64,000 nt of DNA from Sphingomonadales bacterium (GTDB lineage Bacteria > Pseudomonadota > Alphaproteobacteria > Sphingomonadales > Sphingomonadaceae). The stretch spans positions 53,364 to 117,363 of the forward strand of contig JANXSN010000053.1 in NCBI GenBank assembly GCA_025352685.1. The letters are read 5' to 3'. A model generated the notes under the pieces. It was given only the letters and a program-made list of their open reading frames with translations, was not told the DNA's origin and did not search any database. The number at the start of each line of letters is the position of its first letter. The first letter of the stretch is position 1. This document shows positions 22,216 through 30,502 of the stretch, one piece after another. The position numbers were made by a program, and so were the translations under genes.

Positions 22216-24891
22216 ATGGTGCGCGCCGTGCGCGCGGTGTTGGCGCTTCTGGCCGGGGCTTTGGCTCTGGTCCAGGCAGCGCCTTCACGTGCGTGGACGC
22301 CCAATCCCGACGACGCGTTGCTCTTTGAAGTCCGGATGGGACAATACCGGGTGGGCGATGGCGTCCGAGGCTATGCGACGCCCGAGGGGGTCTGCGTCGA
22401 TCTCGCTGATACGGTCATTGCGCTCGATATCCCGATCCGCCTCGACAAACAGTCGCGCCGCGCAACGGGCTGGGCGTTCGAGGAGCGGCACACCGTTACG
22501 ATCGACCGCGCAAGCGGTGTGGAACAAATTGCGAACGTCACACAAAAAGTTGCGCCGCACGACATTCGCGATACGTCTGAGGGGTGGTGTGTTGCAACAA
22601 CTGCGCTTTCGCGCTGGTTTGGCGCTACGTTTACTGCCGATACCCCCAACTCGCTCCTGATCGTCAAATCGGATCGAAAGCTTCCGCCCGAGGCCGCCGC
22701 CGAACGGCGCGCCCGCGCAGCAATCGCGCGGCCGGCGACCAGCTTCGACTTGGCGAGCCTGCCCCAATCGCGGGTGAGCTTTAAAGGGATCAAGCCCCCC
22801 GCTCTCGACGTCGTCGCTAGCATTGGTGGTCTCAGGGACCGGCTCAGCGGGCAGCGGGTTGATGTCCAATATGAAATCTACGCTGCGGGCGAAGTGGGAC
22901 CGGTTGCCTATAACGCGCGCCTGTCTTCCAATCGTAACGGCGTGCCCGCGACGCTGCGTGTTCAGGCCTATCGCGCCGATCCTGCGGGTAACTTGCTTGG
23001 CCCGCTCAAGGCCACGACGGTCGCCGCAGGCGACATACAGGGATTTTCAACGCCCTTGGTCGCGGTGTCGAGCGCAGGTCGCGGCGCGGTGGTTACCAAC
23101 CGCCCCGTTGAACGGTCGGATCGCTTCGACCGTATCGATTTGCGAGGTGAATTGCCCAGGGGCTGGGACGCCGAACTATACCGCAACGGGCAATTGCTCG
23201 CTTTTGCGCAGGACCGCGCCGATGGTCGCTACGAATTTCTTGATGTCCCGCTTCAGTACGGCCAGAACCGGTTCGAGATTGTGCTTTACGGGCCACAAGG
23301 CCAGATCCGACGCGAGATCAGAAGCGTGCCGGTCGGCTTCGACAGCATACCGCCGCGCCAAACATTCTATTGGGCAGGGATCAACGAGGACGGCCGCGAT
23401 CTGCTCAATCTCGGCGGCACACCCGTTTTCGGTCCTGGCGGGTGGCGCGGCACATTCGGCCTTGAGCGGGGATTAAACGCCAAGACGTCAATTGCCGCGT
23501 TTGCCCACAGCTTGGTAATTGATGGCGCGGGGCGACAGAATTATGTCGAGGCCTCGATGCGCCATGCCTTTGGCTCGGCGCTTATCGAAGTGTCGGGGTC
23601 GGCCGAACTGGGAGGCGGGACTGCAATCCGTGCCCAGGCAGTGGGCGAGATCAAACAAACGCGTTACAGAATCGAAACAATATGGGCTGATGGTTTCCGG
23701 TCTGATCGCATCTTGCAAAATGTCACCGGTCTCCACAGCATCACCTTTGATCAGATATTCGGACAGGGAGTTGGGTCGATTCCAGTCAGCCTGGCGGCGC
23801 GCTTGACGACACGCTCAACTGGCGACGACACCATCGATATCACGTCGCGCGTCTCGGCCAATCTGGGGCGCGTTGCTCTTACCGGCGAGCTCCGCTGGCT
23901 CGAGGAGAAACACAAGGTCGGCCCTGATTCGCCTGGCGTCATGGACGCAGGTTTGCTCGCCAACGCCCGGATTGGTCGTGTCCGGCTCCGCGGCGAGGCA
24001 CGATTCCGCCTCGCTCCCGAAACACGCTTCGACAGCGCAACCGTTGTCGGCGAATGGTCGGCGGGGCGCGACGCGACGCGTGGTACGTCGTGGCGTGCCG
24101 AAGTTGGCTATGATCGCGCGATGGAGCGCGCACGCGCGGCACTTGGGTATATTCGCCGCTTCGACAAGCTGGCGTTGACGGCAAGTGCAGAGGCAGCGAG
24201 CGACGGCTCGGTTGCAGCCGGACTTAATCTTGCCTTCAGCCTCGGCGTCGATCCCCGAGATCGCGGCATTCGAATGACGGCCGACAAGCTTGCCTCGCGT
24301 GGCAGCGCGTTGGTGCGCGTCTATCGCGATCTTAACGGCAACGGACGCCATGACTTCAACGAGCCATGGGAAAAGGATGTGGCTGTGACGGCGGGACGGG
24401 TCCCGGTCGATCAGTCTACCAACGCCAAAGGTGAAACGCTGGTTGACGGTCTTGAACCCTTCCAGCCCGTTCTAATCGGTATCGACGCCAGTTCGCTGCC
24501 CGATCCCATGGTTCAACCCTCGCTTCCGGGTGTTGTCGTGACGCCGCGCCCCGGAGTTGTAGCAGTGATTGAGCTTCCGCTTGTGGGGGCTGGCGATATC
24601 GACGGTACCCTCGTCAGGGCGGCAGGCAGATCGATTGAGGGCGTTGATCTCGAACTCCTTGATTCCGAGAAGCGCGTCGTGGCGCGCACGCGCACGGACT
24701 TTGACGGGTTCTTCCTGTTCGATCGCGTTGCTTATGGGCGCTACACCGTGCACATTTCGCAGCTCTCGGCAGATGCAGCCAAGCTGTCGCCAGTGCTGGC
24801 GACATGGGCCGACGTAGGGCCACAACTGCCATCGGCACACATGGGCGCGGTCGCAGCCGCGCCGGCGACGGTCCAAGCAGCACAAAAATAA
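22216..24891 (+). CDS. Fimbrial usher-like outer membrane protein
   Basis: 891 aa, signal peptide, long beta-rich middle, C-terminal RVYRDLNGNGRHDFNEPWEKDVAVTAGRVPVDQSTNAKGETLVDGLEPFQPVLIGIDASSLPDPMVQPSLPGVVVTPRPGVVAVIELPL; follows chaperone gene. Confidence 0.78.
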   Translation: MVRAVRAVLALLAGALALVQAAPSRAWTPNPDDALLFEVRMGQYRVGDGVRGYATPEGVCVDLADTVIALDIPIRLDKQSRRATGWAFEERHTVTIDRASGVEQIANVTQKVAPHDIRDTSEGWCVATTALSRWFGATFTADTPNSLLIVKSDRKLPPEAAAERRARAAIARPATSFDLASLPQSRVSFKGIKPPALDVVASIGGLRDRLSGQRVDVQYEIYAAGEVGPVAYNARLSSNRNGVPATLRVQAYRADPAGNLLGPLKATTVAAGDIQGFSTPLVAVSSAGRGAVVTNRPVERSDRFDRIDLRGELPRGWDAELYRNGQLLAFAQDRADGRYEFLDVPLQYGQNRFEIVLYGPQGQIRREIRSVPVGFDSIPPRQTFYWAGINEDGRDLLNLGGTPVFGPGGWRGTFGLERGLNAKTSIAAFAHSLVIDGAGRQNYVEASMRHAFGSALIEVSGSAELGGGTAIRAQAVGEIKQTRYRIETIWADGFRSDRILQNVTGLHSITFDQIFGQGVGSIPVSLAARLTTRSTGDDTIDITSRVSANLGRVALTGELRWLEEKHKVGPDSPGVMDAGLLANARIGRVRLRGEARFRLAPETRFDSATVVGEWSAGRDATRGTSWRAEVGYDRAMERARAALGYIRRFDKLALTASAEAASDGSVAAGLNLAFSLGVDPRDRGIRMTADKLASRGSALVRVYRDLNGNGRHDFNEPWEKDVAVTAGRVPVDQSTNAKGETLVDGLEPFQPVLIGIDASSLPDPMVQPSLPGVVVTPRPGVVAVIELPLVGAGDIDGTLVRAAGRSIEGVDLELLDSEKRVVARTRTDFDGFFLFDRVAYGRYTVHISQLSADAAKLSPVLATWADVGPQLPSAHMGAVAAAPATVQAAQK

Positions 24892-25105: not shown

Positions 25106-26528
25106 CATTACAGTTGCATTCTAGATTTGACGTGAGCTTTGCGTGCGGCGGCCTGGTGCGCACGTCTCCAGCATGACCACGCAATGACATAGGCAGGCTG
25201 GATGCGGCGCTGTGCGAGCCGGATGGCGAGGCGGCGTACTTCCTGTATTGACCAGCGGATCAGATCCGGATGGTTCTGGTTCTCAGTCTTTTTGGGGGCG
25301 TCAGGGTGTTGGCACGGTACCGGATGACCGCCATCATCGCGAACGCCAGCATGACGAGCGACACGTGCCGGTGCCAGCCATGCCAGGATCGGGTTTCGTT
25401 ATGGTCGAGACCGAGTTCGTTCTTGGTGGTCTCGAAGCTGTCCTCGATCGCCCAGCGGTGACCCTCGACGGCGACCAGGGCCTGGATGGCTGTTCCCGCG
25501 GGGCACCAGGTCGTGAAGAAGGCAAACTCGCCGTCACTGATAGTGCGCCGGATCAGCAAGCCACGGGTCCACAGACCGGATTTCGTCTCGTCATATTCGT
25601 CGGCATGGAGATCGGCGAGTTCGAGGTACGCCCAGTCGTGAAGCCGCGCACCTTTCGTGCCCTCGCCGGCCGAAAGACGTTGCCATGCCGAAGGGGCAAG
25701 ATCGCGGGCAATTTCTGCAGCAGTGCCGGCGATGGCTGGCTTGCCTGCCCATGAGCCAAAATGATGATCGGACCTGACCCCAGCACATAGCCTTTGCACG
25801 CACGCCGCAGGGCCTGCTCGACGTCGCCGACACCATAAACAGCATCCGCTGCGACCCAGGAGAACGGGACGCCTGCCGAGATGGCCCGGCGGATCATCTG
25901 CACCGCCAGCGCGGGCTTGGTGGCAAAGGCCGTGTCGCCCGGAACATGAGCGGCGGCGAGCCGCGCGGCATCACCAGTCCAGCTTTTCGGCAAATACAAA
26001 GCGCGGTCTATGAAAGCATGGCCGCGCGTGGACACATAGGCTGCAAAGACGCCGATCTGGCAGTTGGTGATCTTGCCGGCAGAGCCAGTATATTGGCGTC
26101 CCACGCCGCACGATGCCTTGCCCTGCTTGAGAAAGCCCGTCTCATCGATCACCAGAACCGCCACCAGAACCGCGTCGTCAGCGCCAAGATGTTCGACCAC
26201 ATAGCCGCGCACGATGTCGCGCAATCCGTCGGCATCCCACCGCCCTCGACCCAGAATGGCTTGCTGGCGCCAGGGTCCGGGATCGCCTGCTGCTTCAGCC
26301 CGAATCCACCCCGTCTTGCGGCGCTCGTCACCCAGCAACCCATCAAGGAAAAATCCGGCCGAAGCCGCCACACGCTCTTGCGTGAACAGCCCGCTCATCC
26401 GAGCCTTTACATCCCTCAAAGAAGAAGCCCAAAGCTCCAGCGTCGTCTCGATCGATGCACCCATCACCACAGCCTCCTACCATGGAGACCCATTGATTCA
26501 GAGTTCGGTTAACTACGAAACTGTAATG
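25106..26528 (-). mobile_element. IS701-family insertion sequence
   Basis: Terminal inverted repeats CATTACAGTT (25106-25115 and reverse complement ending at 26528), flanked by CTAG (25102-25105) and CTAA (26529-26532), both fitting YTAR; transposase fragments inside. Confidence 0.8.
25260..26470 (-). pseudogene. IS701 family transposase, frameshifted
   Basis: N-part ORF 25553-26470 and C-part ORF 25260-25799; family sequence moves from CKGYVLG to RSDHHFGSWAGKPAIAGTAAEIARDL in another frame near 25757. Confidence 0.82.
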
Positions 26529-27439: not shown

Positions 27440-30400
27440 TCACGCCAACACGTCTTCGGATGCGCTGTGCCGAAGATCGTCGATCTCCAGATCCGCCAGA
27501 CCGGCTCTCCTCCGGGCCGTATCCCAGCTGTTGAAGAAAGAGCGATAGGGTCTCCCGGTCTTGGGGTTCATGATGACCTGCGGACACGTCGCAGCACGAG
27601 GCAATTCCCGGAATATCGCAATGGCGGCACCTGAGAGGGCGACGGTGCGCTCTTTTCCTGACTGGGCTGAGGGTATGCGCCAGATGCGGCGGTCCAGATC
27701 AACGTGAGCCCATTCAGCCTCAAGCAAGTCCCGCTGGCGGGTACCTGTCAACATAAGCAGCGTGACGATCGATTTCAGCTGCAGGTTGAGACTGGCTTCG
27801 GTCGCCGTGTTCAAGCGTTCCAGCTCCTCGTTTGTCAGCGAGCGCTCACGCGCACTGCGGTTGACGAGCGAAACGCCTTGGGCCGCATCGCCGCCATGCG
27901 TTCCCCATTGCATTGCCATGACAAACATCTGGCCAAGTAAGCCTCGAAGCCGGTTCGCTTTCGCCGGAGACCAGTCCTCTTGGCTTATCATTCTTGCGAG
28001 CCACTCACCAATTTCCGACGGCGCGAGTTCATCGGCGCGTTTCGTCCCGAAACGGGGCAAGATATAGTCTTTCAGACAGCATAAGTCGGTTTCATGACGC
28101 TTTGCGTCGCCGCGCACGGTTTCCAGATATTGTTGGGATAACTGGTTGATCGTAGGCAAACTGCGGTGAGCGCCGGTTTCGGGAGAAAACTCACCGAGTT
28201 CGCGTTGGATCGACAGGGCGCCTTCTGCGCCCGAAGCCATGAGGTGTGCCCGGACCGGCGCCTGTGTCATGCCGAGCTTGGCCCGGATCGTTTCGAGCGA
28301 CGCTGTGTTATCGGCGCCGGCCACCGGCTCTGCGTCTGGCGCCTCTGCTGAAGGCAAGTTCACCTTGCTCAAGACCGCAGCCGAGACGCGATTGCTGGTG
28401 CAAAGCCCTCCGTCACCGTCACTGACCAGAGGCTGCTCAAACTCTATTCCTAGCCGGCCCTTGGCCACCCGACGTACGCGGCCAAAGACAAGCTGCCCTT
28501 CGCGCAAGTCAAGAAGTACCAGGCCGCCGACGGGGATATCGAGGGACCCTTCGATCAGGGCGCCGGACTCGGACAGGTTGCGGATAAGCACCGAGTGATA
28601 CACATGGCCGTCGATCGCGCCGACGGTGCGATACATCGATTGCCGTTCGAAGCGCTGCTTGGCGGGGCCCGACGGCACCATCAGCCATTCGCCATTTTCC
28701 AGTCGCTCACCGATTACCTCTGATGGTACGGCTTTGCTGTAGATCCATCCCTGGACGTGACTGACCCGCAAGCTCCGAACGAGATCAAGCTGATCGTGCG
28801 ACTCGATGCCTTCCGCAGTCGTCTCCATACCCAGCGCTTCGGCGAGCGCGACGATCGCCGCAATGATGGCGCGGTTGCGCGACTTTGGCAGGGTGGCGGA
28901 GCGCACAAAGCTTTGGTCGATCTTGATTTTGTCGAACGGCGCCGTCCGCAGATAACTGAGCGACGAATAGCCGGTGCCAAAGTCGTCGAGCGCCAGACGC
29001 ACGCCGATCTGCTTGAGCGTTGCAAACATCGTGGCGGTGGCAGCGCCCTCGCTCAAGAACACGCCCTCGGTGATCTCGATTTCCAGCCGATCGGGCGCGA
29101 GGCCGGAAGATGCAAGGGCTGACAAGACGACCTTGGGCAGCGAACTGCTGATAAATTGAAGGGGCGAAACGTTAACCGCCACCCTGATTTTTCCGGGCCA
29201 TTTCGCGGCGTCTTCACACGCCTTGCGCAGGACCCACTCGCCCAGCTGCTCGATCAAATTCGCCTCTTCGGCGATCGGAACGAACAGTGCGGGCGAGATC
29301 GGCCCTCGTTTGGGATGGTTCCAGCGAACGAGGGCCTCGACGCCAGTCGTGCATTCGGTCTTTGCATCGACAATCGGTTGATAGAAAAGATCGAGCTCGC
29401 CGCGGGCAAGCGCATCGCGCAGGTCCCCCTCGAGGATCCGTTTGTCTTCGGCTGCCCTAAGCAGCTCATTCGAGAAGAACCGAAATCGACCACGCCCGGC
29501 GTCCTTGGCAGCGTAAAGCGCTAGATCGGCGTTGCGGATAAGCTCGTCGCTCGCCACGCCGTCGAACGGGCTCATCGCCACGCCGATTGACGCACCGATG
29601 ATACAACGATGGCCATCAACGGAATAGGGTTGGGAGAGCGAGCTGATGACGTGCGTGCCCAGATCACCGAGCGCCCCACGGTCTTGGCAATCGCAGACGA
29701 TTATCTGAAACTCGTCGCCACCCAGCCGGAAAACCCGGTCGCGGTCGCCCACAATCTTGAGCAGTCGCTCGGCGACCTGCTTCAACAGCGCGTCGCCCGC
29801 CGGATGGCCGAGCGTGTCGTTTACCTGCTTGAAGCGATCGAGGTCGATCAGCATGACGGCGCACGATCGTTTTTGGACCTTGAGCGCAACGAGGTGCGCC
29901 TCGAGGGCGACTGCCATCGACCGACGGTTCGGGAGGCCGGTCAGGGCATCGTACATGGCGAGCTGCGACGCATGTTTGGTCGTCTGGCGTTGCTCGGTTA
30001 TATCGACAGCGCTGCCGCGATAGCCGGTGAACTGCCCGCTCGGGTCAAACTGGGGGTTGCCCGAAACCGCCCACCACCGTTCATCGCTTGCGACCGCCGC
30101 GCGCAGAGCAAGCTTTTCAAAGCTCAACCGCTTCGCCAGCTGAAAAGCGAGGGTCCGTGAGGCCTTGGTTTCTTCGTTCGACGTCTGAAACAGCTCGGTG
30201 AAAGGCGCGCCGGCAAGCCGGGTAGCATGGTTGGCGAGGAGGGTAACGACGCTGTCCGTCAGATAGGTCAGGCGTCCGTCGTGATCGGTCGACCAGAACC
30301 AGCCTTGCCGGGAGTCCTCGTAATTCTCCAGCAGCAGCCTCACCTCGGCCTTGTTTACCGTCGCACGAAATGAGGCTCTTTGATCGTCCGCTGCAGGAAC

Positions 30401-30502
30401 CGAGGCCTGAGGCGCAGGCTCGCCCCGACTGTCGGCCGCAATCGCGTCCCGCCGGCCCATTTGCCAGAAGCCTAGTTTTGCCATCCCACTTATGTCTCGC
30501 AA
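27440..30502 (-). CDS. PAS-GGDEF-EAL-PilZ protein fused to truncated tyrosine recombinase
   Basis: 1020-aa ORF: RLGGDEFQI, EALVRWNHPKRG, EITEG, DDFGTGYSSLSYL, AEGIE; PilZ motif NLSESG; C-terminal TVRGDAKRHETDLCCLKDYILPRFG...LLMLTGTRQRDLLEAEWAHVDLDRRIWRIPSAQSGKERTVALS...DLRHSASEDVLA*. Confidence 0.88.
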   Translation of the reverse strand: MRDISGMAKLGFWQMGRRDAIAADSRGEPAPQASVPAADDQRASFRATVNKAEVRLLLENYEDSRQGWFWSTDHDGRLTYLTDSVVTLLANHATRLAGAPFTELFQTSNEETKASRTLAFQLAKRLSFEKLALRAAVASDERWWAVSGNPQFDPSGQFTGYRGSAVDITEQRQTTKHASQLAMYDALTGLPNRRSMAVALEAHLVALKVQKRSCAVMLIDLDRFKQVNDTLGHPAGDALLKQVAERLLKIVGDRDRVFRLGGDEFQIIVCDCQDRGALGDLGTHVISSLSQPYSVDGHRCIIGASIGVAMSPFDGVASDELIRNADLALYAAKDAGRGRFRFFSNELLRAAEDKRILEGDLRDALARGELDLFYQPIVDAKTECTTGVEALVRWNHPKRGPISPALFVPIAEEANLIEQLGEWVLRKACEDAAKWPGKIRVAVNVSPLQFISSSLPKVVLSALASSGLAPDRLEIEITEGVFLSEGAATATMFATLKQIGVRLALDDFGTGYSSLSYLRTAPFDKIKIDQSFVRSATLPKSRNRAIIAAIVALAEALGMETTAEGIESHDQLDLVRSLRVSHVQGWIYSKAVPSEVIGERLENGEWLMVPSGPAKQRFERQSMYRTVGAIDGHVYHSVLIRNLSESGALIEGSLDIPVGGLVLLDLREGQLVFGRVRRVAKGRLGIEFEQPLVSDGDGGLCTSNRVSAAVLSKVNLPSAEAPDAEPVAGADNTASLETIRAKLGMTQAPVRAHLMASGAEGALSIQRELGEFSPETGAHRSLPTINQLSQQYLETVRGDAKRHETDLCCLKDYILPRFGTKRADELAPSEIGEWLARMISQEDWSPAKANRLRGLLGQMFVMAMQWGTHGGDAAQGVSLVNRSARERSLTNEELERLNTATEASLNLQLKSIVTLLMLTGTRQRDLLEAEWAHVDLDRRIWRIPSAQSGKERTVALSGAAIAIFRELPRAATCPQVIMNPKTGRPYRSFFNSWDTARRRAGLADLEIDDLRHSASEDVLA

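Follow-up and report, generated by a model that had tools for sequence, protein, structure and literature searches.

Why should a protein of c-di-GMP signalling end in a piece of a phage-type tyrosine recombinase, and what could such a piece do there? The question is raised by a single gene of a sphingomonad genome, which lies in a window of 64,000 nucleotides, the whole stretch of DNA that was analysed. The gene runs on the minus strand, as do all of its features given below, from 30502 to 27440 as one 1020-aa frame opening with TTG at 30502. A preliminary description of the locus had reported a single uninterrupted frame of 1020 aa; uninterrupted it is, but homologue alignment favours the ATG at 30484 as the likely start (MAKLGFW..., 27440..30484, 1014 aa). 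Residue numbers of the fusion protein (R916, R1005 etc.) refer to the 1014-aa form and Pfam ranges to the numbering of the 1020-aa ORF. A long frame open by chance was ruled out, because 15 other sequences carry the full-length fusion at 49-66% identity.

The c-di-GMP half of the protein

The Pfam search proposed together with the preliminary description returned PAS, GGDEF, EAL, PilZ, core-binding and catalytic domains in that order, with a linker between the PilZ domain and the tyrosine-recombinase core-binding domain. The PAS domain comprises residues 62-167 (29984..30301; PAS_4 4.5e-7, ORF 68-173) and is followed by a GGDEF diguanylate cyclase domain at 176-332 (29489..29959; 5e-42, ORF 182-338) and an EAL phosphodiesterase domain at 354-584 (28733..29425; 2e-69, ORF 360-590). 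The intact GGDEF motif and EAL signatures that had been read from the sequence are confirmed by these matches and by residue scoring in 14 homologues. RLGGDEF is present in the window protein and the GGDEF motif is intact in 13 of the 14 homologues scored; the EAL metal and catalytic residues E383, N438, E470, D500, D501, K521, E558 and Q578 are identical in all 14. Judged by these residues the EAL enzyme is intact and the GGDEF enzyme probably so, the GGDEF inhibitory-site Arg being seemingly missing in the window protein (GDRD, judged by eye).

The segment formerly called PilZ-like proved to be a PilZ domain at residues 611-684 (28433..28654; Pfam 2e-4, ORF 617-690). Its score lies about at the cut-off of 22.5 bits (22.1 bits for the whole protein, 23.5 bits for the fragment), the motif NxSxxG is found in 14/14 homologues, and the model resembles the c-di-GMP-bound PilZ structures 8u0i and 4xrn in Foldseek comparison. 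RxxxR has no exact match (QRFERQSMYR in the window protein), with conserved Arg residues at that place. The window protein probably senses c-di-GMP via this domain.

The recombinase tail and its active site

A variable linker (residues 700-785, 28130..28387), the least conserved part of the protein with a mean pairwise identity of 0.285, many gaps and parts at pLDDT <50, leads to the recombinase tail. The SAM-like core-binding domain at 786-872 (27869..28129) gives a Phage_int_M match below the cut-off (ORF 801-875, 1e-4). The N-terminal part of the catalytic domain at about 882-1011 (27452..27841) matches Phage_integrase above the cut-off (5.5e-14, ORF 888-1017), covering only profile positions 2-139 of 172. 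AlphaFold models this catalytic part mostly at pLDDT of about 85-94, and Foldseek matches of the tail include XerA, lambda Int and the catalytic domain of HP1 integrase (HP1: TMt 0.57, rmsd 2.8). A SAM-like N-domain and a "catalytic-fold start" had been noticed before; both are there, but that wording understates a truncation that would leave the recombinase dead in every member.

In active integrase relatives the set R, K, H, R, H, Y is complete in 34/34. Among the fusions both Arg are kept in 15/15, K is lost in 13/15, and the second H and Y are missing entirely. Active-site Arg I (R916, 27737..27739) is thus shared by 15/15 fusions and 34/34 active integrases, and box II, which reads H-x-x-R in active enzymes, is D1002-D-L-R1005 in the window protein (27470..27481), with R1005 present in 15/15 fusions. 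The first position of box II is D in 11/15 fusions and H in 4/15, as against H in 34/34 active integrases. Counting full-length fusions, R916 is kept in 16/16 and so is the box II Arg, both being invariant. The frame ends directly after box II (27440..27469): it terminates after IDDLRHSASEDVLA, and the segment for the second active-site His/Trp and the nucleophilic Tyr is missing, so that of R-K-H-R-[H/W]-Y the window protein lacks K, H, H/W and Y and has the two Arg only. Every fusion copy shares this end point, an LR motif followed by unrelated short tails. The idea that the missing C-terminus is still encoded farther downstream, or in a different frame, was rejected: a profile of the C-termini of active integrases had no match in any frame over the 3 kb that follow. 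Read from these residues, the recombinase part is truncated and catalytically dead in every fusion member. Recombination by the textbook mechanism appears excluded, because K is mostly lost, the second H and Y are gone and the first H is mostly D.

Members differ in what precedes the catalytic part. The core-binding domain is missing in G297/L044, where the catalytic part is kept; the Novosphingobium lentum copy (L051, 3240-6077) has a Gly-Ser repeat linker (GSGGSGSGGSGAGGSASGGSG) in place of the core-binding domain and likewise keeps the catalytic part. A Pfam match to Flavivirus capsid in one fusion member was taken as a chance match.

Origin, distribution and surroundings

Both halves have separate relatives in sphingomonads. 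Solo GGDEF-EAL-PilZ proteins are common there; the solo PAS-GGDEF-EAL-PilZ proteins of ~750 aa (examples are those of G155 and G280, which belong to the window's genus) show the domain order of the fusion and align with the window protein over some 700 residues at 63-65% identity, but end soon after PilZ without a recombinase part and do not share the neighbourhood of the fusion. Sphingomonad tyrosine integrases (e.g. L013, L014) are about 43-44% identical to the recombinase part and have the same core-binding/catalytic order. In contrast to the fusions, they possess an arm-binding domain and a complete C-terminus with R-K-H-R-H-Y kept in 34/34; the fusions have lost the arm domain, the second H, Y and most positive charge, and mostly K.

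The recombinase halves of the fusions form a single clade against the 34 active integrases (support 99/90), and the EAL-PilZ halves form a single clade against 73 solo proteins (support 100/99), with the closest solo relatives coming from the window's own genus. The main groups L038+L039, L040+L163-L166 and L041+L167+L042 are common to both trees. Single clades with matching topology in both halves therefore indicate that the fusion arose once, in an ancestor, and was passed on as one unit. What was joined to a solo GGDEF-EAL-PilZ gene was an integrase's core-binding domain plus the front of its catalytic domain, without the arm-binding domain or the C-terminal end with the catalytic Tyr. As judged from the trees, this was one in-frame fusion in a sphingomonad ancestor, and it has been preserved and is not debris. 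A leftover of an integration event had been considered before; for a recent event, this is contradicted by the single old origin, the matching trees and purifying selection. Across the 14 fusion genomes searched no close solo copy was found: the fusion is the one strong match for its PilZ type, and two of these genomes give a second, distant match.

The preliminary description had allowed for the halves being separate genes elsewhere, with no other genome carrying the fusion; instead, several genera of sphingomonads share the conserved fusion. It occurs in 14 further sphingomonad genomes, in N. lentum, on plasmid pTHN and on an IMG/VR contig, i.e. in at least 17 other sequences. When 399 genomes of the window genome's GTDB-style family were searched at the protein level, it was found in a single frame in G311, G091, G216, G226, G230, G074, G305 and G297 and in part in G386, G311 and G091 being of the same genus as the window genome; with about 10/399 it is rare and patchy in the family. 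Order and genus searches added G494, G558, G1009, G1011 and G1033. Named carriers include Sphingomonas sp. LaA6.9, Allopontixanthobacter sediminis, Sphingomicrobium astaxanthinifaciens and N. lentum. Elsewhere in the class, a sample of 385 genomes yielded ordinary integrases only and no fusion, and the best matches among phage sequences were distant integrases at 20-28% identity. Two distant fusion lineages occur in a single genus, g79, a pattern suggestive of horizontal transfer or of repeated loss.

The copy carried by plasmid pTHN of Novosphingobium sp. THN1 is shifted out of frame by one base at a G run that lies after PilZ and before the recombinase part (L035, about 10959), either a sequencing error or a sign of a decaying copy, and its box II reads YELQ, i.e. 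with Gln at the second Arg. On the IMG/VR contig (L169, 3087-4473) the fusion gene ends ~120 bases before a tRNA-Val adjoining a provirus-type integrase gene; the tRNA-Val is apparently used by the provirus, and the fusion gene there appears to be host flank. Among the fusion loci only L169 adjoins a tRNA, and a link to a tRNA attachment site was not found.

A conserved operon partner was likewise not found: the ORFs around 16 fusion loci have almost nothing in common, and solo copies of the same genus show no synteny with fusion loci. The surroundings in the window look chromosomal (rho, recJ, glpX, homoserine dehydrogenase, PBP). About 1 kb downstream of the fusion gene a transposase (25260-26470, minus strand; DDE_5 1e-41) is split over two overlapping frames and is probably a frameshifted IS copy. 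Further along (22216-24891, plus strand), an 891-aa protein, whose C-terminal end is SdrD_B/carboxypeptidase-regulatory-like, resembles outer-membrane usher-type proteins and adjoins a 271-aa protein without Pfam match. At two other loci (L040, 1607-3979; L165, 5565-7598) a second c-di-GMP turnover protein lies no more than about 5 kb from the fusion gene; GGDEF and EAL motifs were read in the former, and the latter is a similarity match only.

What the tail may do

Two properties of the tail bear on its function, its charge and its conservation. From active integrases to fusions the mean net charge, a crude proxy that does not take in surface distribution, falls from +6.8 to about 0 in the core-binding domain and from +8.2 to +1.0 in the catalytic part. 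The window protein has a core-binding charge of 0, and clearly basic core-binding domains are seen only in the earliest-branching fusions (L038 +9, L039 +5). By this measure DNA binding by the fusion tail looks weakened. The catalytic part is about as well conserved as the PAS domain (mean pairwise identity 0.467 and 0.477) and much better than the linker, whereas the core-binding domain is weakly conserved and near-neutral in charge and, like the linker, drifts fast. The closest pair, G226/G386, has a dN/dS of about 0.06 for the catalytic part (dN 0.019, dS 0.307) and about 0.02 for the core-binding part (dN 0.008, dS 0.405); these are NG86 values of a single close pair, of which one member is a partial, frame-interrupted MAG copy, other pairs being dS-saturated. 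Going by these values, the recombinase half is under purifying selection and not decaying.

Our preferred reading, to which we give a probability of roughly one half, is that the tail is an exapted, catalytically dead recombinase half-domain that gives a c-di-GMP enzyme a non-catalytic module for output or targeting. The signalling enzyme, with the tail added at its C-terminus, would comprise a PAS sensor, a GGDEF cyclase, an EAL phosphodiesterase and a PilZ receptor. Mainly a binding or targeting module, the tail may dock with its half-fold and Arg-Arg pocket on a partner or a phosphate-bearing ligand, and docking would place or tune the enzyme according to PilZ and PAS input. A recombinase-style grip on DNA is probably gone. 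A narrower version, in which the two invariant Arg, which formerly gripped the scissile DNA phosphate and now stand beside the Asp that replaced His, bind a small phosphate-bearing molecule (c-di-GMP, pGpG or GTP, for example) or a nucleic-acid end and control cyclase and phosphodiesterase, we consider a long shot; if true, the Arg-Arg ligand pocket would be a recombinase turned second-messenger sensor.

Against the preferred reading, both phosphate-gripping Arg are kept in all full-length fusions and the core-binding domain is basic in L038 and L039, which fits residual DNA binding. That the genes next to the fusion are not conserved also counts against it. The preliminary description had indeed put forward c-di-GMP-gated DNA binding, whereby the dead recombinase would bind DNA under PilZ/EAL control of its occupancy and act as a transcription or nucleoid factor. 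The confidently predicted fold of the catalytic part and the still basic basal members also speak for this, as does the precedent of MrpR, the master repressor of the Bacillus prophage SPbeta, which has a tyrosine-recombinase fold without recombinase function and binds DNA (PMC10516654). MrpR, however, is a stand-alone full-length fold that keeps K and Tyr and has lost the first Arg (PMC10516654), whereas the fusions keep both Arg, have lost Tyr and mostly K, and are joined to c-di-GMP domains; moreover, the Tyr of MrpR, in a C-terminal part that the fusions are without, is required for binding. With core-binding and catalytic parts that are near-neutral in most members and a core-binding clamp missing in two, gated DNA binding is possible but disfavoured. 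Regulation of active recombinases would be another role, the truncated domain serving as a poison subunit in an integrase or Xer complex and coupling recombination to c-di-GMP. Active recombinases swap their C-terminal segment between subunits; loss of this segment would suit a capping role, and the fold matches XerA and lambda Int. We nevertheless think this unlikely, since the window's genome has no close active integrase (best 24-34% identity, E 1e-6), neighbours are not conserved and presence is patchy.

The tail could also be passive: an old integrase fragment reached by neutral read-through, with no function. Fast drift of linker and core-binding domain would agree with this, and solo homologues in the same genus could do the same core job; but the low dN/dS of the catalytic part in the closest pair, a frame that has stayed open and a box II Arg that all 16 full-length copies retain, and no stop-codon decay apart from the pTHN frameshift make it improbable. 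An artefact or pseudogene, by chimeric assembly or as a recent integration scar, might be suspected from the transposase pseudogene downstream. Homologues in many genomes, from independent assemblies of many species with matching trees and purifying selection, led us to reject it almost entirely.

Domestication of dead recombinases is already known from MrpR and from Cryptons. Crypton-derived DUF3504 proteins of animals contain a domesticated recombinase domain in multidomain host proteins with catalytic residues lost, and protein-DNA or protein-protein roles have been proposed for them (PMC3212892). They differ from the present family in being eukaryotic, of another recombinase lineage, without the second Arg and Tyr in all cases and without a c-di-GMP link. 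In the openly accessible literature searched we found no description of GGDEF-EAL-PilZ joined to a recombinase, and the joining to a c-di-GMP signalling protein thus appears new within that literature.

In animals there are well-documented cases of mobile-element enzyme domains reused without catalysis; in bacteria such cases are rare. The fusion lends itself to a clean test: a single gene whose tail can be removed and solo relatives as natural controls, together with a natural series of tails from basic H-containing through neutral D-containing to clamp-less. A truncated integrase domain that was apparently fused once and kept across several sphingomonad genera would link mobile-element remnants to second-messenger control.
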